Of a stretch of DNA of 64,000 bases, positions 13,258-57,359 are shown piece by piece. Both the position numbers and the translations under genes were made by a program. Source of the DNA: Bacteroidales bacterium. Its GTDB lineage: Bacteria; Bacteroidota; Bacteroidia; Bacteroidales; UBA932. Position 1 is the stretch's first letter, and each line of letters begins with the position of its first letter. The stretch spans positions 124,001 through 188,000 of the forward strand of contig JAGBAO010000013.1 in NCBI GenBank assembly GCA_017938925.1, given 5' to 3'. The notes under the pieces are model-generated. The model saw nothing but the letters and a program-made list of their open reading frames with translations, did not search any database and was not told the DNA's origin.

Positions 13258-14544
13258 TTATTCATCCTCCGGCATCACACCGTCCCACTGGCTGGTGTTG
13301 CGGCAGTCTCCGCAATCCTTGGTCGGCACTGAGAGAGGCTGAGCATCAGCCTTGCTTTCTTCCGTGCCGGACTCTTCTGACTGACCGGTCTTGTTCCACT
13401 TCGGTCCCATTGTCTTGACCTCTGTAGGATGAGCGGTGGTGAAGCTTGGCCAGCCGTCGTCTGTCCACACGATCTGGTCCATGTTCATGCAGCGGCCGTT
13501 ATAGTTGTTGCCCTGCCAGTAGGCGTGGTAGAACATCCAGTTCTGACCGGCGTCGTCGGTTATGATCTCGGCATTATGTCCTGTTCCTGCGAAATAGTTT
13601 CCTTCTGGATTGGACATGATGGTGTTCTTGGCATTGTCGAACGACATGTCCAGCATCCTCTTGCCGTCACGACCGAGATATGGTCCGAGAATGTTCTCCG
13701 AGCGTCCCACTACGATATGATAGGTGCTGGCCGCTCCGGCACAGCAGCTTCCTTTCGAGCCGAAGCAATAGTAGAAGCGTGTCTTGGGATTGTAATGCAC
13801 ATATGTTCCCTCCATGCTATATGCTATCTGGGTCTTGGTTGCACCCGGAGCGATAGCAAGGCCGTCGTCTGTGAGCTTGATCGCCCACACGCCAGACTTT
13901 GCGCCGAAACTTCCCCAGAACAGGTACTTTTCCCCGGTCACTGCATCGCGGATGAGGTTTCCGTCAATGGAGTTGGTCACACCCTGACTCTTGTAGTCCA
14001 CCAGCATTCCATGAGGGTTGGCCAGTTCATTGAGTTCAGGGACATTCTCCCAGGTGTATGGCCCTGTCGGACTGTCGGACACTGCTACTCCCACAGCAGA
14101 GAGCGATGGGGTATCCCAGTGACCTTCAGCATAATAGAGGCAATAGCGGTTATTGATCTCATCATACTCCATGTCAGGAGCCCAGATGCGTGTGTCCGGC
14201 ACCCACTGCGGTCTGAGGCCCTTGCCGGAAGCATCCACGCCGAAGGCATTGCCCACGAACTCCCAGTTGACCATATCCTTGGAACGGTATATCGGCATGT
14301 AGACCACCGACTCGGTGTCGCTCGTACCGTTCTGGGTGCTGATGGCGTAGAAATATCCCGAACGCGCACGGTCGTCAAAGACACTCGGGTCAGGACAGTT
14401 GTTGCGGATGACCGGATTCTGGTAGACCACGGTAGTGAAGCCCACATCAGTATTGGTCTTTATCGGTCTCTCGTCAATTATCTTTTCTGCGCATGAGGCA
14501 AGCAGAAGGAGAGCCGCAAGGCTTATATAAACTCTTGTATTCAT
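13258..14544 (-). CDS. GH43-family glycoside hydrolase lipoprotein
   Basis: A 428-aa lipoprotein (lipobox LLASC, Cys18) with a five-bladed-propeller GH43 domain. The expected catalytic residues are visible: base Asp52 in NNCPDPSVF, pKa-modulating Asp194 in NSIDGN, and acid Glu245 in SMEGTYVHY; WAPDMEYD (Asp124) and a late TGHNAEI metal/His region are also typical. GH43 enzymes mostly remove arabinose, xylose or galactose residues; the long GTYVHYNPKTRFYYCFGS context resembles endo-arabinanase-like subgroups, but the specificity is not certain. The last 40 residues are a Ser/Glu-rich tail followed by a Cys-x-x-Cys (CGDC) segment, unusual for the family. It is the first gene after SusD, so it should act on the polymer at the cell surface. 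Confidence 0.85.
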   Translation of the reverse strand: MNTRVYISLAALLLLASCAEKIIDERPIKTNTDVGFTTVVYQNPVIRNNCPDPSVFDDRARSGYFYAISTQNGTSDTESVVYMPIYRSKDMVNWEFVGNAFGVDASGKGLRPQWVPDTRIWAPDMEYDEINNRYCLYYAEGHWDTPSLSAVGVAVSDSPTGPYTWENVPELNELANPHGMLVDYKSQGVTNSIDGNLIRDAVTGEKYLFWGSFGAKSGVWAIKLTDDGLAIAPGATKTQIAYSMEGTYVHYNPKTRFYYCFGSKGSCCAGAASTYHIVVGRSENILGPYLGRDGKRMLDMSFDNAKNTIMSNPEGNYFAGTGHNAEIITDDAGQNWMFYHAYWQGNNYNGRCMNMDQIVWTDDGWPSFTTAHPTEVKTMGPKWNKTGQSEESGTEESKADAQPLSVPTKDCGDCRNTSQWDGVMPEDE

Positions 14545-14567: not shown

Positions 14568-16391
14568 TTAGTCGATCCAGCCCGGATTCTGAGTCAGGCT
14601 CGAGTTCATCTCACGTTCCTTTGCAGGAATAGGCCAGGTTTCCACATAGTCACCGAGGCTGTACCATGTGTAGGTCGGCTCACCCCAGACCTGCTTGAGT
14701 CCGTTGGTGTTCTTCTGGAACTTCTTCTCGACCCAGATTCCCCAACGGAGCTCGTTGAAATACATGCTGTCCTCTCCGCCAAGCTCCCAGTAGAACTCGT
14801 TGCGGATGCGCTCCCTCATGTCAGCCTGATCCTTTACTGCAGTTGCAGGATATGCCTCATTGTTCAGAGTGACGTGACCGGCACGTGTCCTGACCATATT
14901 CACCAGGGTTACGGCCTCGTCTGTACGGCCAAGTTCGTTCAGACACTCGGCACGGCGCAGAAGCACCTCGGCATAACGGCAGAGGATGTTGTCCTGACGG
15001 TAAAGCCATGTCATCGTATGGTCGAGTCCTTCAGGAACGTACTTGCGCCAGAGGTAGTAGTACATCGAGTTGGTATCCGTACGAAGATCACGATATGAGG
15101 ATCCTTCGCTTCTGTAAGGCCATCTCAGGGTGAATGTGTAGGCATTTCCGGAAATACCTCCGTCATACTGAGAGTACGGAGTGATCACAGACATCATCAG
15201 ACGAGGGTCGCGGTCCGCATATGCCTTTCTGATATTTTCCTCGTTGTGGAGGTTGTCATACCTGGTCATGTCGGCGCCATAGTTGAGCATGGTCTGCTTC
15301 TCGGCATCGGTCATGTTGTTTCTGAGGAAGAAGACAGACCTCTGCTTAGGAGTCATGCTGTTCCAGCCCTCGAAATGGTCTTCCCAATTGAACTTGCTTC
15401 CATCTGCATTCTCAAACGACTCCACGAAACCCGGATTCGGGATATAGTTGTTCCACGCTCCCTTGTCTCCTGTGTAGGTTCCACGGTTTCCGAAAAGCAT
15501 AGCACGAGGGTTACCCATGCCGGAGAATTCGACACACTGGATAGAGAATATCATCTCCTCGCACTGCTCGTTTGCTGGCTTGAGAAGTTCCTTGAAACTG
15601 TTTGCTCCGGCTCCTGTATAGAGCTTGTAGCCAAGTTTTTCAATCTGTTCGAAATCGCTCAGTGCCAGCTCATAGTACTTGGTGTCATTCAGTCTTGACG
15701 CCATGAACTGATATGCATGTCCTCTATATGCATAAGCTGCACCCTTGGTCACACGGCCGTAATTTCCGTCACCGGCGGCATATCTGTCAGGAAGATTCTC
15801 CTCATTTATACAGTCAGTAAGGTCATTGATGATGGCCTGCCATACATCTGCCTCGGAAGATCTGGGCTTATTGGCGGTTCCTGCATCCTCGATATACTCG
15901 AGATAGAGAGGAACACCGCGCCAGAGCACATTGAGGTTGAAGTAACCGTATGCACGGAGGAACTTCGCCTCAGCCTTAAGCCTTGCCTTCTCCTCCGGTT
16001 CCATATCCGGAACCTGGTCGATGTGGGAGATCACGTCGTTGGACCTGAACACGAAGGTGTAATAATATTTGAACATCGATGAGAAGGTGCCGCTGGACGG
16101 TGTGCCGTCACCATAGCATACCTTCTGGTTCTCATACCAGTTCCTGTCCGTATCCATCACTGACGAATATGCCTCGAACATCACACGCCAGTTGTCCTCA
16201 TTGCTGGTGGTCGAAGACCTCTCATAGAACTCGTTGTAGATTCCGTTCACAGCCAGTCTGGCAAGAGAAGCCTTTCCCCACACGTTACTGCTGCCGACCT
16301 GATAGGTGGACTCTGTGTCCAGCATGCCGATGTTGCAGGACATGATTCCCACAGAGGCTGCAATTACAAGAAATATCTTAGTGAATTTCAT
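14568..16391 (-). CDS. susD-like: SusD/RagB-family outer-membrane glycan-binding lipoprotein
   Basis: A 607-aa lipoprotein. I take the start at 16391 (MKFTKIF..., lipobox GIMSC) rather than the in-frame ATG at 16409, because AGGAGG lies 8 bases before it and the upstream ATG is fused to the SusC stop. The RagB/SusD fold is recognisable from the tetratricopeptide-like helices (EEKARLKAEAKFLRAYGYF, ATKGAAYAYRGHAYQFM-like region), the C-terminal NELRWGIW motif and the LTQNPGWID end. It pairs with the SusC encoded just upstream and lids the transporter. Ligand unknown. Confidence 0.93.
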   Translation of the reverse strand: MKFTKIFLVIAASVGIMSCNIGMLDTESTYQVGSSNVWGKASLARLAVNGIYNEFYERSSTTSNEDNWRVMFEAYSSVMDTDRNWYENQKVCYGDGTPSSGTFSSMFKYYYTFVFRSNDVISHIDQVPDMEPEEKARLKAEAKFLRAYGYFNLNVLWRGVPLYLEYIEDAGTANKPRSSEADVWQAIINDLTDCINEENLPDRYAAGDGNYGRVTKGAAYAYRGHAYQFMASRLNDTKYYELALSDFEQIEKLGYKLYTGAGANSFKELLKPANEQCEEMIFSIQCVEFSGMGNPRAMLFGNRGTYTGDKGAWNNYIPNPGFVESFENADGSKFNWEDHFEGWNSMTPKQRSVFFLRNNMTDAEKQTMLNYGADMTRYDNLHNEENIRKAYADRDPRLMMSVITPYSQYDGGISGNAYTFTLRWPYRSEGSSYRDLRTDTNSMYYYLWRKYVPEGLDHTMTWLYRQDNILCRYAEVLLRRAECLNELGRTDEAVTLVNMVRTRAGHVTLNNEAYPATAVKDQADMRERIRNEFYWELGGEDSMYFNELRWGIWVEKKFQKNTNGLKQVWGEPTYTWYSLGDYVETWPIPAKEREMNSSLTQNPGWID

Positions 16392-16408
16392 TTTTCTGTC
16401 CTCCTTCA

Positions 16409-19400
16409 TTAGAATGTGATGTTAAGTCCTGCCGCATACTGGCGCATAGTGGAATATCCGGCTGTCGAACGCATTTCAGGGTCCATTCCTGTGAATCCTG
16501 TTATCGCAAACAGGTTCTCGCCTGAGATATAGACTCTGAGCTTCTTCATCTTCACCTTCTCAGTCCACTTTTCCGGAAGGGTATATCCCAGATTGATGTT
16601 CCTGAGCTTGAGGAAGTCTCCCTTCTCAAGGTGGAGAGAAGACGAGGCACCACTCTGAGTGCTTGAAAGGTAAGCAAGACGAGGCTGCTTCGAATTGATG
16701 TTGGTGCGAGGGTCATCCGGATTCTTCGGATCGAAGAAATAGTGGTCGTCAGCCACCGACTGAGGGATACCGTATCCGTAGGTCGTCGCACTTGAGTTGG
16801 CTGCCTGACGATAGTAGTAGATGCAGAATCCTGCTGCACCTGACCAGCTCATCGAGAAGTCGATTCCCTTCCATCCGCAGCTGAACTGAAGTCCGTAGTT
16901 GTATTTAGGAGTGGTCGAAACGCCCTGGAAACGGCTGTCGAAGCTTGTTCCGTAGAGACCGTCGCCGTTGGCATCGGCATAGATATATTCACCATACCAG
17001 AGCTTTGCCTTTCCGATATCCTGCTGAGGATAAAAGCTGTAGCCGGCATCCAGCATGGCCCTGAGCCATTCCATATCGTTCACCGTACGGATCATACCAT
17101 CGACCGGACCTCCGTCAACATTGACCGAACCATCTGGGTTCCAGTATGTTCCGCTTCCCTTGTAGACATCAGGTAGGTAGTACTCGTTGATCTGATGTCC
17201 CTCAAGGACTCTGGTCGTGGAACCTGTGGAGATGTCTCCGATATTGGTTTCCCATATGCGCTCTCCTGTGACAGGATCTGTCTTCCAACCCTCCTTGAGT
17301 TCACCTTTGTATTTGCTGACCCTGTTTCTGTTAAGGGATACATTGGCTGTAACCGAGTAGTGGAAGTCCTTGCCGACCTGGTCTCTCCATCCGAGTTCGA
17401 TCTCGATACCGCGGTTGGTCACCTCGGCGATGTTCTGCTTCGGAGCGGAAGCCGTACCCATCACCATATACATCGAAGGAGTATAGAGGATACCTGTGGT
17501 CAGCTTGTTGTAGAGATCCACAGTACCTGTGAGACGATTGTTGAAGAAGCCCATATCAAAACCTACGTTGGCCACTCCTGTCTCTTCCCATGTGAGCGAG
17601 TAGTTCTTGATCGCGGTGATGGAGATACCGTTGAGGATCTCACCGCCGAAAGAGTACTTGGTGGTTCCGTATGTGGACTGCCAGTCGTAGTTTCCGATGG
17701 AGTTGTTTCCGAGCTTACCCCATGAGGCACGGAACTTCAGGTTGTCGAGCCATCCGCTTGTTCCTGACATGAAGCCTTCCTTATGGATGTTCCATCCGGC
17801 TGAGAACGATGGGAAGAATCCCCATCTGTGTTCAGGGGCAAAACGGGAAGAACCGTCGTAACGGAGGTTGGCCTCAAAGAGATATCTGTTGTCATACGCA
17901 TATGTAGCTCTTCCGAAGAATGAACGTGACGCATATTCGGTCCTGTAACCGCTTGATGAATAAGGCTCTACAGCTGCATTAAGGTCGCCCACCGACGGCT
18001 CGGACAGACCAAGCTTGTTGGTGCTGAAGTCGTTGTACTTGAAAGTCATCTGCTCGTATCCCACAAGGGCCGACACATCATGCTTTCCGAATGACTGCGA
18101 ATAGTTCACCAGCTGAGAAAGCTTCACCTGATTCTCCCTCTTGTTATACATATAGGTATGGAGGGTTGCGGGATCCTTGTCCGGAATCACATATACGTCA
18201 TTCGAGAAGCTGTATTTTCCGAAGGCATTGTCCACAGACTGCTCCTCCTGACGGTAATCCTTGTAGAAGAAGTCGAAGTCATATGAGAAATGCTTCAGGA
18301 ACTTGACCTTCACATAGAAATCAGTGAAGAGCTGGCTATTGACCGTATATCCGCGGGTGGAGTTCATATCCCAGAGCGGGTTATGTGACTGAGGGTCCTC
18401 CTCGTTTGCCTCAGGTCCTCCATAGAGTCCGAGGGACTTGGAGTACGGATAGATACCCGGAACCATCTTCTGGGTGTTCAGTGAAGTGAGCGAACCGACA
18501 TTGCTTTTGTCCTGGTCAGTGCGGTATCCCCAGATGCGGGCACCGACTCTGAGCCAGTCAGTGATGTCGGAATAGAGGTTCACCCTTGCAAAGAAACGGT
18601 TGTATCCTGTATTTTCGATGATACCAGGGTTATCGATGAATGAGAAGCTGAGGTTGTAACCTGTCCTCTTTTCCTTTCCGTTGACAGAGACAGCATACTT
18701 CTGCATCAGCTTGTTCTGATATATGACATCCCACCAGTCGGTGTTCGGATATGCCATATAATTATAGTATCCCGAGAGGGCACGGCCCCATGGGTCCTGC
18801 TTTGCAGCTCTCCAGGCATCGATAGTGGACTGCTGGAACACGCGAGAACCACCGATATTGATGGCGGATTCGTTCATCAGTTCCATATATGTCGCATAGT
18901 CCGATACGGTGTGGATGAGCTTGAACGGCTGGTTGAGAGACCATGTAGCATCGAGAGATACCTCGATCTTTCCATCAGAAGAACCGTTCTTGGTGGTCAC
19001 GAGTACGACTCCGTTCGCTGCCCTGTTACCATAGATGGCGCAGGATGCGGCATCCTTGAGGACAGTGATGGAAGCGATGTCGGCAGGGTTGATGTTACCC
19101 ATTCCCTGTTCCATTCCGTCCACCAGCACGAGAGGACCGGCTGAGTTGAGGGTTCCCGTACCGCGGACGATCATAGAGAAGCCTTCCTCATAAGGATTTC
19201 CGGAACCCTGCATGACCTGAAGGCCAGGGATGGCACCGGCAAGTGCCTGATTGACGTTGAACATAGGACGTGAATCCGCACCGAGCTTCTCGAAGCTTAC
19301 AGTGGAAACAGATCCTGTCAGATTGGCCTTTTTCTGGGTACCGTATCCGACAACCACCACCTCTTCAAGACTGAGGGTGTCGTCTGCAAGGACAACGTCG

Positions 19401-19684
19401 TACACATCAGCCTGGGTCAGAGTGACATTGGACACGACGTATCCGATACTGCTGACCTCTATGATCTTCGCGTCTGACGGTACCTTAAGCACATAACGTC
19501 CGTCTATATCCGTAACAGTACCAGATGTTGTACCGGGGACAAGCACCGCCGCTCCAATGACAGGGAGTCCGGTTCCATCTGTCACCGTACCTGAAATCTG
19601 ACGCTGGGAGTTCTGCGCAAAGGCGGGCACAGAAAGCAGCATCACCAGCAGCAATGCACTGATTTTCAATATAGTGTGTTTCAT
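16409..19684 (-). CDS. susC-like: SusC/RagA-family TonB-linked outer-membrane transporter
   Basis: A 1,091-aa protein with a signal peptide (AFA/Q, residue 23). It has a carboxypeptidase-regulatory-like domain (ISGTVTDGTGLPVIGAAV), the linker SLEEVVVVGYGTQKKANLTG typical of SusC proteins, a plug (GLQVMQGSG... LVLVDGMEQG, VLKDAASCAIYGNRAANGV) and a C-terminal 22-strand barrel ending in YAAGLNITF. It should import oligosaccharides across the outer membrane with TonB energy. It directly precedes SusD (stop and ATG overlap) and follows the NAGPA-like lipoprotein gene after 7 bases, tying that enzyme to this uptake system. Confidence 0.95.
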   Translation of the reverse strand: MKHTILKISALLLVMLLSVPAFAQNSQRQISGTVTDGTGLPVIGAAVLVPGTTSGTVTDIDGRYVLKVPSDAKIIEVSSIGYVVSNVTLTQADVYDVVLADDTLSLEEVVVVGYGTQKKANLTGSVSTVSFEKLGADSRPMFNVNQALAGAIPGLQVMQGSGNPYEEGFSMIVRGTGTLNSAGPLVLVDGMEQGMGNINPADIASITVLKDAASCAIYGNRAANGVVLVTTKNGSSDGKIEVSLDATWSLNQPFKLIHTVSDYATYMELMNESAINIGGSRVFQQSTIDAWRAAKQDPWGRALSGYYNYMAYPNTDWWDVIYQNKLMQKYAVSVNGKEKRTGYNLSFSFIDNPGIIENTGYNRFFARVNLYSDITDWLRVGARIWGYRTDQDKSNVGSLTSLNTQKMVPGIYPYSKSLGLYGGPEANEEDPQSHNPLWDMNSTRGYTVNSQLFTDFYVKVKFLKHFSYDFDFFYKDYRQEEQSVDNAFGKYSFSNDVYVIPDKDPATLHTYMYNKRENQVKLSQLVNYSQSFGKHDVSALVGYEQMTFKYNDFSTNKLGLSEPSVGDLNAAVEPYSSSGYRTEYASRSFFGRATYAYDNRYLFEANLRYDGSSRFAPEHRWGFFPSFSAGWNIHKEGFMSGTSGWLDNLKFRASWGKLGNNSIGNYDWQSTYGTTKYSFGGEILNGISITAIKNYSLTWEETGVANVGFDMGFFNNRLTGTVDLYNKLTTGILYTPSMYMVMGTASAPKQNIAEVTNRGIEIELGWRDQVGKDFHYSVTANVSLNRNRVSKYKGELKEGWKTDPVTGERIWETNIGDISTGSTTRVLEGHQINEYYLPDVYKGSGTYWNPDGSVNVDGGPVDGMIRTVNDMEWLRAMLDAGYSFYPQQDIGKAKLWYGEYIYADANGDGLYGTSFDSRFQGVSTTPKYNYGLQFSCGWKGIDFSMSWSGAAGFCIYYYRQAANSSATTYGYGIPQSVADDHYFFDPKNPDDPRTNINSKQPRLAYLSSTQSGASSSLHLEKGDFLKLRNINLGYTLPEKWTEKVKMKKLRVYISGENLFAITGFTGMDPEMRSTAGYSTMRQYAAGLNITF

Positions 19685-19691
19685 AGGTCAA

Positions 19692-21431
19692 TTATTTGAA
19701 GCATGCGATTGCCAGATTAACGAACTCATCACTCTCAGGTCTCATCTCACCTGTGGTGAAATTATAGCGTCTGTTCACCATGAACAGGTCATATCCTCTG
19801 CTGCCTCCGTCCTGTAGCACGAAAGAACACCAGTTGTAATCCTCAAGAGTCATCACCTCGGAACATCCCATTTCAGACATAATGAATGAAAGTTCCGAAA
19901 GCGTCAGACCATATGGATCCGAGGTTGCACCGTTCATCTTGTTGTATTTTCCCTGCCCCTGATTGTGGGTGTTCAGATATTTTTCCACCGTGAACAGCAC
20001 GAGATCACCCTTGGCAGTGACGCCAACGGCATGACGGCCGATACGAAGTGCATCGTGATCGGTTACAGGGAGGCTGGTGCTCCAGCTTGGTGTAGTGAAA
20101 TTTGTGAGAAGACAGGTTCCGTCTTCAGAATAACCCGGGAAGGTGCGCCACAGATGAGAATACTGTATGAGAACATCGCCTCTTCCCGTAATGAGATTGT
20201 CACCACCGTTGACAATCATGAAATAGCCTCCGACAGCACAATCGACATCAGACCAGTCCTGTTCACCGTTTCCGGATGCATCAGAATAGCGATACAGTCT
20301 GTTGGCCGCCTTGTCTGTCCTGGCCGGTGCAATCATCGCCTTGCCATCCTTGACGGCAAGAGCGGGAGCATACATTATATTATCAGGCTGCCCCCCCCAG
20401 CCCTCCTGGCGGAGGACTTCTCCGGCAGAGTATACCAGAGGACTGTAATATGTGAATCCCTCGGATGCAGACGAACCGTCAATATGCCAGACTCCAGGAC
20501 CATTCATATAGAAGAATATCGACCAGTCGGGATTCGCTCTGACAGCCGCAGAAATCTTCGCCGCATCGTTCGAGCCGAGACGTGCCTTTTCAAGAACCTG
20601 CATGTTCACCTTGCCGGCTGGAATCGTCATCAGATATCCGATATTGCCTTCAGAATAGTTGAGCGAGCTGGTCTTGTATATTCTTATTGAAGAAGAAAGG
20701 GTAGAAAGCGCGTGTTTCTTCTTATATTCCGCAGTCACGTCTGTCCACGACTCATCGAGAGTCACAACGTCTGCAGGAGCAGCATTGACGACAAGAGTCT
20801 TGTAATGACCGCTGACCACATCCTTGATCTTTATACTCAAGGACTGACCGGCCTTTGTGAAGTCAACAGACTCGAGACTCTGAGGATCTGTCACGAAAAC
20901 AGCGCTGTCACCAAGTTCGACTTCCACCTTAACGTCCTTGAGATCAGAGTACAGGTAAAGGTTTCCGAACTTTCCTTTGGCAGCAAGATAATTGAGAGTA
21001 CACTCTACCTCCTCTTCTCCCTTGACAAGCTTCACGCTTTTAACGAACTCGTACTTAGGAGCTATCACGTCATAGGACACCACATCCACTCCATCGTTTA
21101 CGCTGATCTTGAACTGTGTCTCAAGATTCGCTTCGAACTCAGGAGTCTCCGGAGTGACCATCTCAGGCCACTTTCCGTTAAGTTCCACTTTCAATGGCAC
21201 TTTCGAGAAGTCATCAAGGACGTGGAACTCGAACGTGATGGTCCGGTTCTGGTCATCGACAGTTCCCTCGATCCACCTGTCACCGTCAAGGGCCTTGATG
21301 ACGGCAATCGGAGAATCCGTATATCCGGGATCTTCCGAAATACTGAAAATCATCTTTTCCTGGCACGATACAGTCAGGAAAGTGATGAAGAAGGTGGTTA
21401 TCAGTAATTTAATGTTGAATATTCTATTCAT
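19692..21431 (-). CDS. Lipoprotein with NAGPA-like (phosphodiester glycosidase) C-terminal domain
   Basis: A 579-aa lipoprotein (lipobox LTVSC, Cys23). Residues about 35-225 are beta-sandwich modules resembling DUF5018-type Ig-like domains (VKALDGDRWIEGTVDD..., SYDVIAPKYEF). The C-terminal 350 residues fit the NAGPA fold: a long insertion, then RHAVGVTAKGDLVLFTVE, GLTLSELSFIMSEMGCSEVM and a final FMVNRRY strand. NAGPA proteins cleave sugar-1-phosphodiester bonds (human uncovering enzyme; bacterial relatives on polysaccharides). The usual acidic Asp-Gly-Gly-Gly-Ser block is replaced here by LEDYNWCS, so activity may be altered or lost. The coding strand has an 8-G run near codon 345. It lies between the GpsA-like gene and SusC; a binding rather than catalytic role is possible. 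Confidence 0.6.
   Translation of the reverse strand: MNRIFNIKLLITTFFITFLTVSCQEKMIFSISEDPGYTDSPIAVIKALDGDRWIEGTVDDQNRTITFEFHVLDDFSKVPLKVELNGKWPEMVTPETPEFEANLETQFKISVNDGVDVVSYDVIAPKYEFVKSVKLVKGEEEVECTLNYLAAKGKFGNLYLYSDLKDVKVEVELGDSAVFVTDPQSLESVDFTKAGQSLSIKIKDVVSGHYKTLVVNAAPADVVTLDESWTDVTAEYKKKHALSTLSSSIRIYKTSSLNYSEGNIGYLMTIPAGKVNMQVLEKARLGSNDAAKISAAVRANPDWSIFFYMNGPGVWHIDGSSASEGFTYYSPLVYSAGEVLRQEGWGGQPDNIMYAPALAVKDGKAMIAPARTDKAANRLYRYSDASGNGEQDWSDVDCAVGGYFMIVNGGDNLITGRGDVLIQYSHLWRTFPGYSEDGTCLLTNFTTPSWSTSLPVTDHDALRIGRHAVGVTAKGDLVLFTVEKYLNTHNQGQGKYNKMNGATSDPYGLTLSELSFIMSEMGCSEVMTLEDYNWCSFVLQDGGSRGYDLFMVNRRYNFTTGEMRPESDEFVNLAIACFK
20391..20398 (-). repeat. G8 homopolymer inside the NAGPA-like gene
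   Basis: Eight consecutive C on the plus strand, i.e. G8 in the coding strand, spelling the W-G-G of EGWGGQPD. Such a run can slip during replication; one base gained or lost would truncate the lipoprotein before its NAGPA core motifs. It is one of only two such runs I noticed in the window. Confidence 0.8.
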
Positions 21432-21437
21432 ATATGA

Positions 21438-22487
21438 TTATTTAGTCTGGTCAAAAGTAAATGCCTCCCAAGGCAGATGAGCGTCCTTGCCCTCGTCGAG
21501 AACTGCATTCGCGTGACAGAGCATAGGAAACATGCTCAGGTCAACCTGGCCGAGCTCCGCCTTGCGGGCCATCGCAGCATATACGCGGCGGGCAACCACG
21601 AGGCTCTCGAGAGTGACTCCGGCGAGGATATCAAGGGCCTCCTGGTAGGTCTTTCCTTCACCGAGGAGAATGCCGATCTTGCGGGTGCGTCCTCCATATA
21701 CGGTCACGTAGAGGTCACCGATACCTATGTTCTCGCAGTCCCTGCTGGCTCCCTGCATCTCAAGAAGATAACGCATCTCCTTGACTGCCTGATAGAAAGC
21801 TCCAGCCTGAGAGTTGTAATGCAGGCCGGCATCTGCACCAAGGTCACGAGTGACAAGACCTATGGTCATCGAGATGGCGAGGGCATAGCCGTTCTTGAGG
21901 GCCACCGCGCTTTCAAGACCGATGACGTCGTTGGTGAGGGAGATGTGGTAGTAGTCTGTAGCCATGGCCTCCTTCATCATCCTGAGGACTTCAGAGTTCT
22001 CTCCGCAGAAAGCCACTTCAGTCTGGTCGTGGAACACGAGTTCGTACGATGTGCACGGACCTCCGATGGCACAGACCTCCCTGTCGATGCCCATCTTTGC
22101 AAGTTCCCTCTTCCAATAATCAGGATAAGAGATCAGGGTTCCGTCTTCAAGATTGATGAGGCCTTTCGTTACGGAAAGCACCGGCACGGAAGGATCAAGA
22201 TGAGCAAGCACCTCGGTCAGGAACCAGTCCACTCCGAAAGACGACACGCCTCCGATGACGAAATCTGCGCCATCGACCGCTGTCTTCCAATCTTCGAAAT
22301 GATAATACTTAATTCCCTGTGGGAAAGGGATGTCAAACTTCGGATGCTTGTTGTCCTTCAGACATCCGTCGATGATGTCCCTGTCAAGAGGAGTTCCGAC
22401 AAGACGGACTTCATTGCCGTTCTCAAAAGCAGGATAAGCAAGGGCTGAACCCATCATTCCCGCTCCGATAATTGTAATTGTCTTCAT
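21438..22487 (-). CDS. NAD(P)-dependent glycerol-3-phosphate dehydrogenase family protein (GpsA-like)
   Basis: A 349-aa cytoplasmic Rossmann protein. The nucleotide-binding motif is IIGAGMMGSALA at residues 7-18. VTKGL (Lys108) and the catalytic ALKNGYALA (Lys198) match the GpsA family, as do IGGPCTSYE and TVYGGRTRKIGILLGEG, the equivalents of the substrate-binding GPS/TRN blocks. The usual P-S-H motif after the second Rossmann strand is VSSFGVDW, so this is not a canonical housekeeping GpsA. It would interconvert dihydroxyacetone phosphate and sn-glycerol-3-phosphate. It is the first gene of the long SusCD operon, 6 bases ahead of the NAGPA-like lipoprotein, which suggests use of glycerol phosphate released from the target polymer (inference). 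Confidence 0.85.
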   Translation of the reverse strand: MKTITIIGAGMMGSALAYPAFENGNEVRLVGTPLDRDIIDGCLKDNKHPKFDIPFPQGIKYYHFEDWKTAVDGADFVIGGVSSFGVDWFLTEVLAHLDPSVPVLSVTKGLINLEDGTLISYPDYWKRELAKMGIDREVCAIGGPCTSYELVFHDQTEVAFCGENSEVLRMMKEAMATDYYHISLTNDVIGLESAVALKNGYALAISMTIGLVTRDLGADAGLHYNSQAGAFYQAVKEMRYLLEMQGASRDCENIGIGDLYVTVYGGRTRKIGILLGEGKTYQEALDILAGVTLESLVVARRVYAAMARKAELGQVDLSMFPMLCHANAVLDEGKDAHLPWEAFTFDQTK

Positions 22488-22527
22488 TACTGCGTATCGT
22501 TTTGGTTTCTATTTTTCTATTTGGAAA

Positions 22528-22559
22528 CAAAGGAAAGAAATAAATTTCGATTACGCAAC
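22528..22559 (-). promoter_or_regulatory. Putative promoter of the first SusCD operon
   Basis: On the minus strand there is GTTG (22556-22559), 20 bases, then TTCCTTTG (22528-22535), each one mismatch away from the -33 TTTG and -7 TAnnTTTG boxes, followed by the GpsA-like ATG 40 bases downstream. It lies after a strong terminator, so a promoter is needed here. The match is imperfect. Confidence 0.4.
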
Positions 22560-22590
22560 AATTTGTCGTAAACTTTTTATGCAGACGGAT

Positions 22591-22632
22591 AAAAAAATCT
22601 GCGTTGTCCTTGAACAACAAGAACAACGCAGA
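22591..22632 (-). terminator. Intrinsic terminator of the DeoR operon
   Basis: On the minus strand a 10-bp perfect stem (TCTGCGTTGT / ACAACGCAGA, 15-base loop) is followed directly by seven T residues (A7 at 22591-22597 on the plus strand). It lies 27 bases after the DeoR stop and separates that transcript from the GpsA-like operon. Confidence 0.85.
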
Positions 22633-22658
22633 ATAATTCTACGGAATATCAATATGTA

Positions 22659-23426
22659 TCAGCTTGCTATTATGACCTTTACGCCCTGTTCCTCGAAACG
22701 TTTCTTCAGAGACTGAGGCAGGCCGTCATCCGTAATCAGGATATCTATCCGGGAGATGTCACAGATCTTTCCGAAACCGCTTTTCCCGATCTTGGTCGAA
22801 TCCGCCAGAAGGATGACCTCGGAGGCTACACCCAACATGGAATCCGTGACACGCGCCTCTGCAACAAAGGCTGTAGTGATGCCGCCATCGAAATCGAAAC
22901 CATCACAGCTGAAGAACGCCTTGGTGCATTTCACATACTTGAGGCCCTCTTCCGTATATGCATCACGCACAGAAAGTGACTTGACAATAAGACGTCCGCC
23001 AAGCATGAGTATGTTCACGTCCTCTTTCTCACTAAGATAGATTCCCACCCTGATGGAAGGAGTCACTACGTTAAGGGTTCCCTTAGGGGTGAGTATCTTG
23101 GCAAAGGCCTCGATCGTCGAACCGGAAGTCAGAAGAATGGAGTCCCCTTCCTGAATCAATCCGTTTGCGGCACGAGCGATGGCAGCCTTCTTCTCGACAT
23201 TGAGCGAACTCTTTTCCTGTACAGGAAGATCCACTACATTGGATCTGGAAGGAGAAGCACTGCCATGGGTCCTGTGCAGCAGATTCTTAGCCTCCAGCAC
23301 TCTAAGATCCTTACGGATGGTCACGACCGATACTCCGAGTTCCCTGGCAAGATCCACCACCTTGGCATAGCCGTCTTGCTTCAGATTCTGGAGAATATAC
23401 TGATGTCTCTCCGATATAGTTTTCAT
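22659..23426 (-). CDS. DeoR-family transcriptional regulator (paralogue 1)
   Basis: A 255-aa regulator. Residues 1-58 are a DeoR winged helix-turn-helix (RHQYILQNLKQDGYAKVVDLARELGVS..TIRKDLRVLE). The rest is the DeoRC sensor domain with the sugar-phosphate loop TSGSTIEAF, ILMLGGRL, FFSCDGFDFDGGIT and LLADSTKIGKSGF. DeoR proteins of this type (GlpR, FruR, AgaR) usually repress and are released by phosphorylated intermediates such as glycerol-3-phosphate or sugar phosphates. It follows the glycerol-1-phosphate dehydrogenase gene, has its own -7 box, and is transcribed toward the GpsA-like operon but terminated before it. About half of its residues match the second DeoR at 56577-57341. Confidence 0.93.
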   Translation of the reverse strand: MKTISERHQYILQNLKQDGYAKVVDLARELGVSVVTIRKDLRVLEAKNLLHRTHGSASPSRSNVVDLPVQEKSSLNVEKKAAIARAANGLIQEGDSILLTSGSTIEAFAKILTPKGTLNVVTPSIRVGIYLSEKEDVNILMLGGRLIVKSLSVRDAYTEEGLKYVKCTKAFFSCDGFDFDGGITTAFVAEARVTDSMLGVASEVILLADSTKIGKSGFGKICDISRIDILITDDGLPQSLKKRFEEQGVKVIIAS

Positions 23427-23445
23427 TATGCAGTCAAATTTCGCA

Positions 23446-23453
23446 CAAAAGTA
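23446..23453 (-). promoter_or_regulatory. -7 promoter box of DeoR paralogue 1
   Basis: Minus-strand TACTTTTG fits TAnnTTTG and lies 19 bases from the DeoR ATG. The following GCGAAATTTGA leader closely resembles the leader of the other DeoR gene at 57342-57367. No -33 box was found, as the position falls in the end of the preceding gene. Confidence 0.5.
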
Positions 23454-23464
23454 CGAAAAATAAA

Positions 23465-24802
23465 TTATACCTCCCAGATTCCGCCTTTGCCGAACATGCG
23501 CTGGACGAACTCATCCATCCAGCCGAGACGGTAGATGACATCTATATTTGTGAACCGGCTCCTCATGAACGGGATGTATGAGACCGTCTGACGGAAACGC
23601 TCGCGTGTCACGCCTATCATCTCCGGCTCATAAGGAGCGCCTACAAGGCGAAGGCTCTCGCGCACCTGCCCGAACGGGATTATCTGTTCGCGGATCCTGA
23701 CGCTGAGCTCCGGCCAAGCGGCCTTCAGAGTCTCGAGCTGGCTGCGCAGTTCCTCTTTGCTGACGTACTTGCCCTTTGTCTCGACCAGAGCCCTGGCGAT
23801 ATGTCCCGGCTTTCCTTCCATCAGGGTGCGGATTTCGGACTCCATTTCCTCCCAACTCTTCCATGCTGCCACGCAAGCATCCACATCTATATTTTCAAGG
23901 CCCTTTTCAAGAAGGAATTCAAGTTCTGCCGTTGAAACGAGCGTGCCGATACCCACCTTGAATCCATGTGACACATGCTTTCCTTCGAAGCACAGGTCCT
24001 CCATGTCCCAGCAATGAGAATACTGGTGCTCGGTACCGGAAGCAGGACGGCTTGACTGTATGGCCTGCATGGCGAATCCGCTCATAAGAAGGCCGTCAGC
24101 AAGAGCCTGGGTCTTGTCCACATCTCCCGCAAAAACAGCTGCCGGATCCGCCAGGGACTCCTTAAGTCCGTTCTGAACCAGATCCCATGCAAAAGAATCG
24201 ATCTTCTCGCTTCCCACGACATCCGCCAGCATCCAGTCGGCACCTGCAGGTATCTTTGCGATGAGGTCTGCATATCCGGACGCAGCAAGCTCCTTCGGAG
24301 CCGCGGCTGCTATCTCCGAGTCCAGCACAAAACCCAGAGGAGCCGGGCAGTCGAAGGTCTGCTTGTTGCCGTCCTTTGTTATGGATGCGCCATAGGCTGT
24401 AAATCCGTCCATGGATGCTGCGGTGCCCACGCACATATATCTTCTTCCAAGCATATGCGACACCAGCTTCACAGTGTCGTTTATGACGCCGGAGCCGACT
24501 GCAATCGCAACGGCATCCACTGTTTCGAGGAATGATTTAAGGGATTCGATATGCTGCCATTCAGCATAGAAATCCTTGGCAGGGAATATATAAGGCTTTT
24601 CCGAAACTATGCCCGCCGCATCCAGCGAAGCCTGGGCGTTTCTTCCTGCAACCTCCCATGTGTTCTCATCTGCCACAATCACCGCCCTCTGACCCGAAAA
24701 AAGTTCAGCAAACATTTCCGCAGTCCTGCATACAGTTCCTCTGCCGATGATCAGGGCCTTTGTATCCCTCGCCCTCTGGAGCGCCTGTTCAATCTTGTTC
24801 AT
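23465..24802 (-). CDS. sn-glycerol-1-phosphate dehydrogenase family protein (AraM/EgsA-like)
   Basis: A 445-aa cytoplasmic iron-type alcohol dehydrogenase of the G1PDH branch. The dinucleotide motif GSGVINDTVK is at 103-112, followed by TAASMDGFTAYGASI. The metal ligands are in place: Asp179 (ASGYADLIAK), His259 (SGTEHQYSH) and His279 (HVSHGFKVG). The family includes archaeal G1P dehydrogenase and B. subtilis AraM/EgsA, which interconvert dihydroxyacetone phosphate and sn-glycerol-1-phosphate, the stereoisomer found in archaeal lipids and in polymers built from phosphatidylglycerol head groups. It lies between a PMM-like phosphatase and a DeoR regulator, opposite a sialidase operon. An arabinose-related role, as suggested by the name AraM, cannot be excluded. 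Confidence 0.88.
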   Translation of the reverse strand: MNKIEQALQRARDTKALIIGRGTVCRTAEMFAELFSGQRAVIVADENTWEVAGRNAQASLDAAGIVSEKPYIFPAKDFYAEWQHIESLKSFLETVDAVAIAVGSGVINDTVKLVSHMLGRRYMCVGTAASMDGFTAYGASITKDGNKQTFDCPAPLGFVLDSEIAAAAPKELAASGYADLIAKIPAGADWMLADVVGSEKIDSFAWDLVQNGLKESLADPAAVFAGDVDKTQALADGLLMSGFAMQAIQSSRPASGTEHQYSHCWDMEDLCFEGKHVSHGFKVGIGTLVSTAELEFLLEKGLENIDVDACVAAWKSWEEMESEIRTLMEGKPGHIARALVETKGKYVSKEELRSQLETLKAAWPELSVRIREQIIPFGQVRESLRLVGAPYEPEMIGVTRERFRQTVSYIPFMRSRFTNIDVIYRLGWMDEFVQRMFGKGGIWEV

Positions 24803-24814
24803 ATCGATCAGTCT

Positions 24815-25552
24815 TTACAAAAGAAAATCCAACATTTCAGGCAGTTTCGTATAGTCCTCGATCTGCACATAGTCCATTCCCTTGATGCGGACATGGCTGT
24901 CTCCGCCGCCGTCGCCGAAGTCGTCACCTATGAAGAGAATTTCTTCTTCTGAATAGCCATGCTCCTGGGCATATTTCATTATTGAATCATACTTGTTATA
25001 ACGCTTAGGAGCGAAGTCAAAAGACGAAGATCCTCCGATATAGACCACATGCTCCGGGAAGAGTGAGCAGATTTCATCATAAAGGACACGACGCTTGCTC
25101 CTGTCAGGGTCAAACACAACCTTATCCTCCACTTTGGCACCGCTTCCGATGAGACAGAAAGTCACCATGCCGGAAGGATGGAACTCAAGATGCCCGCCTG
25201 CATATTCAGTATATCCGTATTTTTCACGGAGATACATGCAGGTGGTATTGAAGTATTCTCTGTCAGGCTCTGCGGTGTCCTCACGGATGATCCTGAACTC
25301 ACCGTCCACCATCGCACTTTCCTGCATTCCGTAATTGGCGATGATGTCGATCGGATACTGCTCCATCTGATTATATATGCGCGGTGCATTTCCTGCCCCC
25401 ACCATGATAACCTTGTATTTCTCATCCAGTCTTTTCAGGACATCCTTGTTTGCCTGAGGCATATGGCTCTTGTGCTGGGACAGGGTGCCGTCGAGGTCAA
25501 AGCAAAGGAGCCTCTTGCGGCATTTCAAATCTTCCGAATTATAGATTCTCAT
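24815..25552 (-). CDS. HAD-IIB phosphatase, phosphomannomutase-like
   Basis: A 245-aa cytoplasmic protein with motif I LLCFDLDGTLSQ near the N-terminus, cap-domain segments resembling eukaryotic-type phosphomannomutase (MVGAGNAPRIYNQMEQYPIDII, YGMQESAMVDG) and motif III/IV LFIGDDFGDGGGDSHV. The likely chemistry is a sugar-phosphate phosphatase or mutase; the substrate is unknown. I set the start at 25552 (MRIYNSED) because the upstream in-frame ATG at 25579 lies next to and reads through the -7 promoter box. It is first in a three-gene operon with the glycerol-1-phosphate dehydrogenase (12-base gap) and DeoR. Confidence 0.85.
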   Translation of the reverse strand: MRIYNSEDLKCRKRLLCFDLDGTLSQHKSHMPQANKDVLKRLDEKYKVIMVGAGNAPRIYNQMEQYPIDIIANYGMQESAMVDGEFRIIREDTAEPDREYFNTTCMYLREKYGYTEYAGGHLEFHPSGMVTFCLIGSGAKVEDKVVFDPDRSKRRVLYDEICSLFPEHVVYIGGSSSFDFAPKRYNKYDSIMKYAQEHGYSEEEILFIGDDFGDGGGDSHVRIKGMDYVQIEDYTKLPEMLDFLL

Positions 25553-25568
25553 GTTCTTTAATTTTTCA

Positions 25569-25598
25569 CAAATGTACATATTTTTTCGTTAAATCAAA
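25569..25598 (-). promoter_or_regulatory. Promoter of the HAD - G1P dehydrogenase operon
   Basis: Minus-strand TTTG (25595-25598), 18 bases, then TACATTTG (25569-25576), a full match to TAnnTTTG. It excludes translation from the ATG at 25579 and points to the ATG at 25552. Confidence 0.65.
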
Positions 25599-25657
25599 AC
25601 AAACGGAAGCAAATCACAACATTTGAACTTCCGGCTTTTCATTTTACTACAAACAAA

Positions 25658-25689: not shown

Positions 25690-25712
25690 CGTATATAACT
25701 TTCACAACGCCA

Positions 25713-31170: not shown

Positions 31171-33369
31171 TTACAATCTGACTGTGACGGTCCTGGAGAT
31201 GTTGTCGGAGGCGGAACCTACGAGGATTTCGAAGTCGCCGGGTTCGGTCTTCCAGTCCATGGACTCTTCGTCGAAGAAGCGGAAGGCGTCCGGACCAAGT
31301 TCTATGGAGACTGTCTTTGTCTGTCCAGGCTCGAGATAGACCTTGTCAAATCCCTTGAGCTGTTTCTCAGGCATTTCGACAGAAGCCTCGCAGTCGTGGA
31401 CATAGACCTGTACGACTTCCGATCCGGCAACCTGTCCCACGTTTGTTACAGGAACCTTCACCGTAATCTTTCCGCCGCGGATCTTCTTTGAAGAGAGGGT
31501 CACGTCACCGTACTCGAAATCAGTGTAGCTCAATCCGTGTCCGAATGCGAAGAGAGGCTTGATGTCCATCTTCTCGTGCCATCTGTATCCGAGGAAGATT
31601 CCCTCGTCATAGTGATTCTTGCCACGTGTTGGGAAAGTCTTGCCGTTGTAGTGGGCAGGGTTGTCTTCCAGCTTCACAGGGAAGGTGAACGGCAGCTTTC
31701 CGCTCGGGTTCACGTCTCCAAAGAGCACGTCAGCGATCGCGCGTCCTGCTTCGGATCCGCCATACCAGCCAAGAAGGACTGAAGGCACCTGATCGATCCA
31801 CGGCATCGCCACAGCGTTTCCGCTTATGATCACTACCGTCATGTTAGGATTGACCTTGGCAAGCTCGCTGATGAGTTCATCCTGTCCGTATGGGAGGCCG
31901 TACTCAAGTCTGTCGCGGTTCTCGCAATCCTGGTAGAGAGACTTGTTCAGACCGCCCACATAGATGACATAGTCAGCATCACGGGAGTTCTCTACCGCCT
32001 CTGCGATGAGTTCAGCGCGAGGTCTGTCATCGGCAAGCTTCTGGAATGAAGGAATTCCGTCCTGGGTCGTGGTGGTGTCCCCGACATATCCTCTTGAATA
32101 TACCACTTCCATTCCGTCCCGGGCGGCCCTTTCAAGGATTCCTTCGAGCGGAGACATCTCATAAATAGGCTTGAGCATTGAAGAACCTCCTCCGATGCAC
32201 ATCTTCTTGTAGGCATTCTCGCCCACGACGGATATCTTGCCCGGCTTTCTGACAGGCAGCACATCGCCCTCGTTCTTGAGAAGCACGATACCTTCCTGAG
32301 CCACCTTTCTGGCAACATCGAGATGCTCCTGAGTGCACATCGAACCGAACGGCTTGTCCATGTTCATCGCAGTGCGGAATGTCAGTCGGAGCACCCTGCG
32401 GACCTTCTCGTCAAGACCTTCCTCGCTGAACTCTCCGGCAAGGATTCCCTGTTTGTAGGCCTCTGCAAGATAATATGTATCATATACGCTTTCACCTGCA
32501 GGCATCTTCTTGCCGACCCTTGTTCCGAACTCCACGTCAAGTCCTCCGAGCACAGCCTCCTTGGTGTCATGGCAGCCTGCCCAGTCGGACATCACCACAC
32601 CGTCAAAGCCCCACTCCCCTTTCAGGATGTCGTTGATAAGATAGCCGTTATGGCAGCAGTGTGTGCCTCTGAAAAGGTTGTAGCTCGCCATCATGCTCCA
32701 GGCGCCACCTTCCTTTACAGCCATTTCGAAGGCAGGAAGATAGATCTCCCTCAAAGCACGCTCGCTGACCTCGACGTCTGTCTTGTGACGATGCCTCTCC
32801 TCATTGTTGCAGGCATAGTGCTTCACGCATGCACCCACGCCCTTGGACTGAAGTCCATGTATATATGGAACCGCAAGTTTTCCTGCAAGATAAGGGTCCT
32901 CACCCATATACTCGAAGTTACGGCCGCAGAGCGGGCTCCTGTACATGTTAACGCCAGGTCCGAGAATCACATCCTTCTCCCTGAAGCGCGCCTCTTCACC
33001 GATTGCCGCACCATACTGACCGGCAACATCCCTGTTCCATGTGGCTGCAAGACAGGTCAGAGCAGGGAATGCCACGCAGGAGTCATTGTTCCAGCCAGGA
33101 TTGCCCCAGTCGTTCCATGGAACTTCCGGACGGACTCCGTGAGGGCCGTCGCTTGTCCACAGCTCAGGAATACCAAGTTTCTTCACGCCGGGAAGAGAGA
33201 ATGTGGACTGAGCATGGATTGCTGCGATCTTCTCATCCAGAGACATGCGGCTGAGCGCATCCTCCACCCTGGCCTCGATATCGGCTGACGGGTCAAGATA
33301 AACAGGAGTGTCTGATTGTCTGCCACAGGCCACGACACACAACAACACGAAAAACAGATACTTCTTCAT
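31171..33369 (-). CDS. GH3-family glycoside hydrolase lipoprotein
   Basis: A 732-aa lipoprotein (lipobox VVAC, Cys15). N-terminal (alpha/beta)8 domain: LWTSDGPHGVR, GPGVNMYRSPLCGRNFEY, KHYACNNEE, and nucleophile Asp262 in GVVMSDWAG. The C-terminal alpha/beta sandwich (GKISVVGENA, VLLGWYGGSEAGRAIADVLFGDVNPSGKLP) and a fibronectin-III-like domain (FGHGLSYTDFEYG to the end) complete the usual three-domain form. It is a probable exo-beta-glycosidase (glucosidase, xylosidase or N-acetylglucosaminidase-like; not resolvable). It is the last gene of the second long operon and ends near a bidirectional terminator. A second GH3 with the same architecture is at 54316-56580. Confidence 0.92.
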   Translation of the reverse strand: MKKYLFFVLLCVVACGRQSDTPVYLDPSADIEARVEDALSRMSLDEKIAAIHAQSTFSLPGVKKLGIPELWTSDGPHGVRPEVPWNDWGNPGWNNDSCVAFPALTCLAATWNRDVAGQYGAAIGEEARFREKDVILGPGVNMYRSPLCGRNFEYMGEDPYLAGKLAVPYIHGLQSKGVGACVKHYACNNEERHRHKTDVEVSERALREIYLPAFEMAVKEGGAWSMMASYNLFRGTHCCHNGYLINDILKGEWGFDGVVMSDWAGCHDTKEAVLGGLDVEFGTRVGKKMPAGESVYDTYYLAEAYKQGILAGEFSEEGLDEKVRRVLRLTFRTAMNMDKPFGSMCTQEHLDVARKVAQEGIVLLKNEGDVLPVRKPGKISVVGENAYKKMCIGGGSSMLKPIYEMSPLEGILERAARDGMEVVYSRGYVGDTTTTQDGIPSFQKLADDRPRAELIAEAVENSRDADYVIYVGGLNKSLYQDCENRDRLEYGLPYGQDELISELAKVNPNMTVVIISGNAVAMPWIDQVPSVLLGWYGGSEAGRAIADVLFGDVNPSGKLPFTFPVKLEDNPAHYNGKTFPTRGKNHYDEGIFLGYRWHEKMDIKPLFAFGHGLSYTDFEYGDVTLSSKKIRGGKITVKVPVTNVGQVAGSEVVQVYVHDCEASVEMPEKQLKGFDKVYLEPGQTKTVSIELGPDAFRFFDEESMDWKTEPGDFEILVGSASDNISRTVTVRL

Positions 33370-33378
33370 ATTCTATAA

Positions 33379-34968: not shown

Positions 34969-34977
34969 GTTATTGCA

Positions 34978-37212: not shown

Positions 37213-38081
37213 AGTCCTTTGTACTCAGGGTCAAAAATAAGGTTAAGCGTATGGGCAAGGCGATATGCGCTGATCTGTATCTGGTACATTATGAAATCAC
37301 CGTGCTCCACATAGAATGAATCGTTGTATTCCTTCCCCGGCTTCCAGCCCCACTCGTAGATTTCCCAGCATCTTGCAGCGCTCTCGTCGATCCAGTCCTT
37401 GACGGAGCCGGCAACAATCGCCCTGCGGGAAGCTACGCTCATCGTATCGATGTGCTCTGCAAAAGGCTTGAGCTTCAGATTGAACTCGGGATGCACCCTC
37501 TCGCCTCCACGGTCGAAAAGTCCATGGTAGGAGTCTGTCTTGCCGTTATACTTTCCGTTCTCGAAGCCCCAACGGGAATCAAGGCCGGTCTCCCCTTTCG
37601 AGTCGGTCGGCATGTTCTCATAATAGTAGTGGGCCGGGCAGTGGGCGTCGCCCATCAGGTGGGTCAGATACTTGAGATTGATCACAACCGCCGAGTCCGA
37701 CAACTCCTTATAGTTCTTCAGCTGTTCGATGCAGCCCAGGAGGAACGGCATTCCGTTACCGTTCGGGTCCTTTCTTCCCGACTCCATCATCACCTTGCCG
37801 TTCTTATCGACCGAGAACATATGCCAGTAGGTTGTTCCCTGGATGTATTCCGGAGCCTCGCTCCAGTCCATTCCGCCCCAGTCATAGTCACGATAGATGT
37901 CCATCCACAACGATATGTCCGCAAGAGGGACATCAAGGTATCTGTCCAGCTGGGCCTTTGTGGTCTCGGTGCAGTTGCGCTGCGCCATATAGCCTATGAG
38001 CTTATGCGACCATGCCCAGCCGTAGGATGCCACGGAGAAGCACAGTGCCGCAAGAATCGATGCTATCAGTTTACGTTTCAT
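37209..38081 (-). CDS. S1/P1-type zinc nuclease / phospholipase C-like phosphodiesterase
   Basis: A 290-aa secreted protein; the signal peptide ends around ASYG, leaving a Trp at the mature N-terminus. Zinc-site motifs of the S1/P1 family are present in order: WSHKLIGYMAQ, LWMDIYRDYDW (Asp), TYWHMFSVD (His), HLMGDAHCPAHYYYE (His, Asp, His) and YHGLFDRGGE (His, Asp). The Trp-to-His spacing is one residue off the usual W-x4-H. The family cleaves single-stranded nucleic acids and removes 3'-phosphates; some relatives act on phospholipids. It is translationally coupled to the TonB-dependent barrel and flanked by two DUF5689 genes, so release and uptake of a phosphodiester-containing substrate is likely. 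Confidence 0.82.
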   Translation of the reverse strand: MKRKLIASILAALCFSVASYGWAWSHKLIGYMAQRNCTETTKAQLDRYLDVPLADISLWMDIYRDYDWGGMDWSEAPEYIQGTTYWHMFSVDKNGKVMMESGRKDPNGNGMPFLLGCIEQLKNYKELSDSAVVINLKYLTHLMGDAHCPAHYYYENMPTDSKGETGLDSRWGFENGKYNGKTDSYHGLFDRGGERVHPEFNLKLKPFAEHIDTMSVASRRAIVAGSVKDWIDESAARCWEIYEWGWKPGKEYNDSFYVEHGDFIMYQIQISAYRLAHTLNLIFDPEYKGL

Positions 38082-38090
38082 AGACTTGGA

Positions 38091-43165: not shown

Positions 43166-43171
43166 AATTCA

Positions 43172-44851: not shown

Positions 44852-44865
44852 TTCCCTATCCTCCA

Positions 44866-52927: not shown

Positions 52928-52931
52928 ACGG

Positions 52932-57341: not shown

Positions 57342-57359
57342 ATAGCTTTCAAATTTGCG

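Follow-up and report, generated by a model that had tools for sequence, protein, structure and literature searches.

In Escherichia coli, the glp regulon consists of GlpQ, GlpT, GlpD/GlpABC and GlpR. In the PusCD systems (PUS) of Flavobacterium (PMC8115612), which are induced on phosphate depletion, SusCD is found alongside phosphodiesterases and importers that carry organophosphates across the inner membrane. The locus analysed here lies in a 64,000-nucleotide stretch of a Bacteroidales genome (the window; C16:124001-188000 of a 2.67 Mb assembly in 34 contigs, 92% complete), in which a SusCD operon begins with a gene for a GpsA-like dehydrogenase and adjoins a short unit encoding a HAD-IIB phosphatase, a sn-glycerol-1-phosphate (G1P) dehydrogenase-like protein of the AraM/EgsA family (G1PDH) and a DeoR-family regulator (Table 1). 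On balance, this was judged to be a SusCD uptake locus that would feed on glycerol-phosphate diesters, and its food is probably molecules linked by glycerol phosphate, for instance pieces of cell wall or membrane. The identities of the genes and the recurrent linkage of their relatives to glycerol-phosphate genes support this reading.

As in the Flavobacterium systems, so far as the accessible text of PMC8115612 describes them, SusCD is co-localised with a phosphoesterase (PHP family) and an organophosphate transporter (OPA family), both encoded within the operon. Those systems respond to phosphate depletion, whereas the window encodes a DeoR regulator and dehydrogenases predicted to act on the carbon skeleton, which would suggest carbon use. 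SusC, SusD, a GH43 glycosidase, an esterase and the PHP protein, on the same strand with short gaps, also make up a SusCD-type polysaccharide utilisation locus (PUL). The earlier note on this DNA knew of no PUL of this kind; the Flavobacterium SusCD phosphodiester loci are such a precedent (PMC8115612), but searches of open-licence PMC papers turned up none in which SusCD is combined with a G1PDH or serves teichoic acid. The locus is likely a variant of the SusCD phosphodiester loci. With the E. coli glp system it shares a GlpT-related OPA importer, a glycerol-phosphate dehydrogenase and a DeoR-family regulator, and a glycerophosphodiesterase (GDPD) is found in the loci of its relatives though absent from the window; what it adds is SusCD, a HAD-IIA phosphatase, a G1P dehydrogenase and an enzyme of the GpsA type.

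The window G1PDH belongs to the same enzyme family as Bacillus subtilis AraM, a Ni-dependent G1P dehydrogenase that feeds an ether phospholipid pathway (PMC13400652, accessible part). The window genome (92% complete) gave no PcrB/GGGPS match at E 0.001, and an archaeal-type ether lipid role of its G1PDHs was set aside on that ground; G1P is therefore not evidently meant for such lipids. The araM of Bacteroides thetaiotaomicron encodes an L-arabinose mutarotase and not a G1PDH in the accessible part of PMC4666351. The available portion of a report on stereospecific GlpQ (PMC7086022) gives wall teichoic acid (WTA) as a polymer of sn-glycerol-3-phosphate (G3P) and lipoteichoic acid (LTA) as one of sn-G1P; GlpQ is a Gram-positive hydrolase, whereas the window carries a SusCD uptake locus.

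The GpsA-like gene starts the SusCD operon, as the earlier note had claimed. It was rejected as the housekeeping gpsA of the genome: a second gpsA, scoring 148 bits against 65 for the window protein, is present on contig C20. The window protein also missed the NCBIfam GpsA cut-offs, reaching 91 bits where the best equivalog requires 423 and 103 where the best subfamily requires 257. At the position equivalent to human GPD1 Asn270, Thr was found in 81/81 GpsA-like proteins (window included) and Asn in 30/30 housekeeping copies, while the other six of seven checked active-site positions were retained in all 81. By their sequences, the GpsA-like proteins form a distinct subfamily apart from housekeeping gpsA. 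The closest named relatives come from Bacteroidales metagenome-assembled genomes (MAGs), many with animal-gut titles, and matches at E 1e-60 occurred in 5 of 149 family genomes (own included), all of one genus, with G084 as an outlier at just 55% identity.

The best 80 of 127 stretches found in a contig scan for GpsA-like relatives were taken as test loci (27 from Bacteroidales and 53 others, mainly from Clostridia and the Verrucomicrobia-group), spanning several phyla, and 30 housekeeping gpsA copies of one family, with 1.5 kb per flank, served as controls. Neighbour names without a Pfam, NCBIfam or local-HMM hit (GlpB, GlpC etc.) were assigned by eye, the local HMM seeds were partly drawn from test loci (GDPD, L012 and L018; OPA, L010 and L018; DeoR, L011 and L044), and the picking of open reading frames overlooked some genes, such as the G1PDH of L119. 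Within 1.5 kb, GDPD was found beside 20/80 GpsA-like genes and OPA beside 7/80, each against 0/30 for housekeeping gpsA. Any of GDPD, OPA or GlpA/D was present in 26/80 versus 0/30 loci (Fisher 8.7e-5), in Bacteroidales (10/27) and in other phyla (16/53), and DeoR in 17/80 versus 0/30 (Fisher 0.006). With test loci cut to control size, the GDPD/OPA/GlpA/D association remained at 25/80 versus 0/30 (p 1.8e-4), and at 23/70 in the trimmed test after dropping 10 of 11 loci that share one chromosomal site. Five of the 80 loci (L011, L024, L028, L032, L052) have metallo-beta-lactamase-like proteins within 1.5 kb, which are possible candidate phosphodiesterases; Pfam support was checked for L024 alone.

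Among the test loci, L027 has the gene order of the window (DeoR, GpsA-like, NAGPA-like, SusC, SusD). In L018, an S1/P1 nuclease is followed by GDPD, GpsA-like, GDPD, G1PDH, GDPD, OPA, GlpA and another oxidoreductase, whose iron-sulphur and CCG regions resemble those of GlpB/C, and these glycerol-phosphate genes lie near SusD.

The best solved match of the window G1PDH was the G1P dehydrogenase 9h4x (E 5.9e-33), although it missed the NCBIfam G1PDH equivalog PRK00843 (150.6 vs a 413-bit cut-off). Relatives were sought in 149 family genomes at E 1e-40 (nine genomes) and in 393 order genomes at E 1e-60 (seven genomes); the own genome was among both, leaving 14 other genomes as the neighbour sample. 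In 10 of these 14, GDPD, OPA, HAD-IIA or GlpA/D lay within 5 kb of the G1PDH relative, a count that omits two centre-overlapping genes, the GDPD of L134 and the OPA of L137. DeoR and G1PDH occurred together in all six order genomes; OPA and HAD-IIA each accompanied them in five, GDPD in four and GlpD in three. L135 has a different transporter in place of OPA, and the contig of L134 stops before the HAD-IIA position. In L117 and L119, HAD-IIA is followed by SusC and SusD, joining the glycerol-phosphate set to SusCD.

In a tree, the window G1PDH clustered with a 90% identical copy about 55 kb away (L089:9359-13783, own C16 at about 203 kb), with a 72% identical paralogue on contig C7 that adjoins L-ribulose-5-phosphate 4-epimerase (AraD) and a DeoR gene, and with the protein of G027. 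The GDPD- or OPA-bearing rows, except L018, fell together with G004 into a separate group of ten rows (support 90/89). G1P is the predicted substrate of the window enzyme; the clade, which includes the AraD-linked paralogue, makes this uncertain. The tree position thus leaves the role of the window copy less certain than that of the gene set. The second G1PDH on C16 (L089) is accompanied by two DeoR genes and a SusCD pair. A protein with an H-V-Q-G motif, seen by eye, lies beside G1PDH in three genomes (L089:10942, L121:7623, L122:1657), with no Pfam match for the L089 and L122 copies.

The HAD-IIA phosphatase was searched independently of the dehydrogenases and matched 11 of 393 order genomes at E 1e-60 (own included). 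In nine of the ten other genomes (five of the six that carry a G1PDH, and all four that do not) the relative lay beside OPA, GlpABC or G1PDH; the tenth match (G481) was at a contig start, its neighbours outside the data. Six of the ten carry a G1PDH, and these are all the G1PDH-positive genomes among the 392 others (hypergeometric p 4e-11, uncorrected for kinship, two of the six being of one genus). In B. subtilis, the HAD-IIA protein AraL shares an operon with AraM.

The window OPA protein scored 252 bits, short of the 633 that the GlpT equivalog requires. It was 54-62% identical to the OPA proteins of four Bacteroidales GpsA-like loci, L018 among these, and 40-46% identical to those of other G1PDH loci. 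The window DeoR was 62-65% identical to the DeoR proteins beside GpsA-like genes in L027 and L011, 42-50% to those of four operons with GDPD and G1PDH (L132-L135) and about 30% to those of Clostridial GpsA-like loci. Among the loci compared, which had already been selected via GpsA-like or G1PDH, the window OPA and DeoR were thus closest to those of GpsA-like loci. Relatives of the GpsA-like, G1PDH, OPA, DeoR and HAD-IIA genes occur elsewhere with GDPD or GlpA/D, some of them with SusCD. Two of the conditions that the earlier note named as fatal to its idea, a genome lacking any other gpsA and dehydrogenases never found with SusCD elsewhere, were thus checked and neither refuted it; its interpretation is supported in part.

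In the proposed mechanism, SusCD would take phosphoglycerol-bearing oligomers into the periplasm, where glycerol phosphate would be freed by the PHP protein (at 3660), by the S1/P1 nuclease and metallophosphoesterase of a neighbouring locus, or by GDPDs encoded elsewhere, and would be brought in by the OPA antiporter. The GpsA-like enzyme would oxidise sn-G3P, and the AraM-like enzyme sn-G1P, to dihydroxyacetone phosphate with NAD+; HAD-IIA would strip surplus phosphate ester and DeoR would detect a phosphorylated intermediate. Since WTA is a polymer of sn-G3P and LTA one of sn-G1P, a locus with two enzymes would suit both, as the earlier note had proposed. Deacylated phosphatidylglycerol likewise supplies both stereoisomers, and deacylated phospholipids fit as well.

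If this reading is true, phosphoglycerol compounds would join the foods taken up through SusCD loci. Bacterial G1P dehydrogenases, which have no clear purpose apart from lipid synthesis, would then gain a catabolic setting, and a sequence mark would set apart a group of GpsA relatives that a family-name annotation would label biosynthetic. A bolder proposal, which we consider rather doubtful, is that gut Bacteroidales have SusCD loci for Gram-positive glycerol-phosphate polymers (WTA, LTA, phosphoglycerol capsules) with one dehydrogenase per enantiomer, that the GpsA-like/Thr proteins, which also occur in Clostridia and the Verrucomicrobia-group, are G3P dehydrogenases with a catabolic role, and that sister loci of the L142 type in this genome (SusCD, mannitol-phosphate dehydrogenase, GDPD, OPA) extend the scheme to other phospho-polyols.

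Several observations weigh against feeding on glycerol-phosphate diesters. The window has no GDPD, the genome's four being on other contigs, and this is a real gap, since release would fall to the PHP, S1/P1 and metallophosphoesterase proteins or to enzymes elsewhere; a separate GDPD-GlpABC-OPA set is present on contig C21 (B and C by eye), and the NAGPA match in the operon falls below cut-off. Oxidising glycerol phosphate with NAD+ is thermodynamically unfavourable. G3P may be the substrate of the GpsA-like enzyme, but the active-site Asn is gone from all 81 proteins and the substrate may therefore differ. Within 1.5 kb, 54/80 GpsA-like loci have no GDPD, OPA or GlpA/D, some contigs ending there, and eleven of the Bacteroidales loci occupy one and the same chromosomal site, near ATPase genes. 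Four of the 14 G1PDH genomes lack a glycerol-phosphate partner: in G004, G129 and G027 every family looked for was absent, and G096 has SusCD alone. The window G1PDH groups with the AraD-linked paralogue, apart from the GDPD-linked rows, and is encoded in a unit separate from the SusCD operon. The two dehydrogenases, which the earlier note took as equipment for both stereoisomers, seldom share a locus: of the 80 GpsA-like loci, just L018 and, less closely, L035 also matched the G1PDH of the window, and in L035 an opposite-strand gene intervenes and the two genes are about 2 kb apart.

The strongest competitor keeps the mechanism and changes the substrate: the food would be deacylated phospholipid such as glycerophosphoglycerol, which gives both stereoisomers from one molecule, with no teichoic polymer involved. 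This scavenging of phospholipid headgroups is a tentative alternative that we rank below the broader reading. GDPD, GlpA and OPA are the classical glycerophosphodiester set, L009, L012 and L016 each have an S1/P1 family member no more than 1.5 kb from the GpsA-like gene, and the Flavobacterium phosphodiester SusCD loci were proposed (PMC8115612) to serve lipid headgroups and nucleic acids. The GH43 glycosidase, esterase and three fn3 proteins of the same operon suggest instead that the substrate has a glycan component.

It is unlikely that the AraM-like gene works in pentose metabolism with GH43 and adjoins the GpsA-like operon by coincidence. AraM is encoded in the arabinose operon of B. subtilis, and the C7 paralogue next to AraD, together with its DeoR, which is 49% identical to the window DeoR and 70% to a second DeoR of the window (56577-57362), points the same way, as does the terminator-like hairpin that sets the G1PDH unit apart. 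However, the window DeoR is closest to DeoR proteins beside GpsA-like genes, glycerol-phosphate partners were found in 10 of the 14 other genomes with a G1PDH relative, and GH43 scored well under the arabinanase equivalog cut-offs.

Least probable of all is a redox sink, in which the dehydrogenases would run in reverse from dihydroxyacetone phosphate to G3P and G1P, HAD phosphatases would release glycerol and NADH would be disposed of during fermentation; the equilibrium lies toward reduction, each of the two units has a HAD phosphatase and a G1PDH is fused to HAD-IIB in L035, but the importer, GDPD, GlpA/D or GlpABC beside the relatives indicate uptake and oxidation, and HAD-IIB had no match among 392 other order genomes at E 1e-25.

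Open frames were present at the positions given in the earlier note. The minus strand carries two units, HAD-IIB/G1PDH/DeoR first and then the GpsA-like/SusCD operon, and the latter, through to HAD-IIA, is probably a single transcript, since its genes share a strand and either overlap by a few bases or are no more than 172 apart. The AraM/EgsA-like and DeoR genes adjoin the operon as described; the hairpin, however, places the two dehydrogenase genes in separate units. The HAD gene beside G1PDH was confirmed, as a HAD-IIB starting slightly past the end first assigned to the locus. OPA and HAD-IIA were correctly identified; at 0.6-2.9 kb of the window, they close the SusCD operon, some 17 kb away from where the region in that note begins.

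Table 1. Features of the window, with the evidence for each assignment
Feature	Position	Strand	Evidence
HAD-IIA phosphatase	641..1531	-	over HAD-IIA subfamily cut-off
OPA-family (GlpT-like) organophosphate transporter	1534..2907	-	E 1.3e-59 to solved GlpT 1pw4
DUF2490 protein	3006..3650	-	Pfam
PHP phosphoesterase, signal peptide by eye	3660..4808	-	Pfam 26.3 vs 26.4 cut-off, just short
Alpha/beta-hydrolase esterase	4849..6426	-	family match
Three paralogous fn3 proteins	6423-8600, 8610-10916, 11089-13242	-	Pfam and mutual similarity
GH43 glycosidase	13258..14544	-	Pfam; well under arabinanase equivalog cut-offs
SusD lipoprotein	14568..16409	-	Pfam
SusC outer-membrane transporter	16409..19684	-	family match; 65% identical to L027 SusC
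Lipoprotein (by eye), weak partial NAGPA match	19692..21431	-	PF09992 21.2 vs 25 bits, profile 89-136 of 169
GpsA-like dehydrogenase, first gene of SusCD operon	21438..22487	-	two Pfam GPDH domains over cut-off, 63.3 and 50.8 bits
Terminator-like hairpin between DeoR unit and GpsA-like operon	22598..22632	-	15 pairs, 7 G-C, T tail
DeoR-family regulator	22659..23426	-	Pfam over cut-off
G1PDH-like (AraM/EgsA family)	23465..24802	-	Fe-ADH_2 124 bits, over Pfam cut-off
HAD-IIB phosphatase, first gene of HAD-G1PDH-DeoR unit	24815..25579	-	Pfam over cut-off
Second SusCD locus with S1/P1 nuclease (37209-38081), DUF5689 pair, GH3	31171..47958	-	family matches
Calcineurin-like phosphoesterase, upstream of second SusC	47978..49552	-	family match

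The NAGPA-like phosphodiester glycosidase of the earlier note was not established. Its match was partial and under cut-off, no solved relative was better than E 0.069 and no match was found in 392 other genomes at E 1e-10, so that NAGPA was not supported as a conserved part; its sole relative among the loci compared is the neighbour of the GpsA-like gene in L027 (34% identical). The PHP assignment was borne out by the solved PHP-like phosphoesterase 3e38 (E 1.7e-77), even though Pfam falls a hair short. The fn3 trio are possibly surface binding lipoproteins. HAD-IIB as a conserved part was likewise not supported by the search of 392 genomes; the window protein is 43% identical to the HAD portion of the L035 fusion (L035:4072-6090, an Oscillospiraceae MAG).

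Rfam (gathering scores) and tRNA scans across the window gave no hits. In a comparison aimed at a shared operator, the stretches 22488-22658 and 25580-25712, which precede its two units, had no word of nine or more bases in common. When 66 intergenic pairs were compared, two words were unmatched in 100 single-base shuffles: a 12-base word that precedes both the window's second DeoR and the C16 copy of G1PDH, and a 14-base word common to intergenic stretches of L027 and L088. Both are A+T-rich and at most putative operator words.

Relatives of the second SusCD locus lie upstream of the glycerol-phosphate genes of L018 (SusD 52%, S1/P1 37%, the DUF5689 pair 41 and 47% identity). The second SusCD pair is flanked by two proteins with GLUG motifs (39722-43165 and 49595-53044), which share 77% identity across 828 residues. 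Elsewhere in the genome, a C31 locus (L142:7683-19899) encodes SusC, SusD, a mannitol-1-phosphate 5-dehydrogenase, GDPD, OPA and a glucosamine-6-phosphate isomerase-family protein, and possibly serves other phospho-polyols; with the C21 set, it suggests a broader use of phosphorylated polyols by this genome. A row on C29 (L140:1726-15895) contains SusD, GDPD, a LacI-like regulator, an alcohol dehydrogenase-like gene and two lipoproteins with a metallo-beta-lactamase fold by eye, one with a Pfam match just under cut-off and the other with none.

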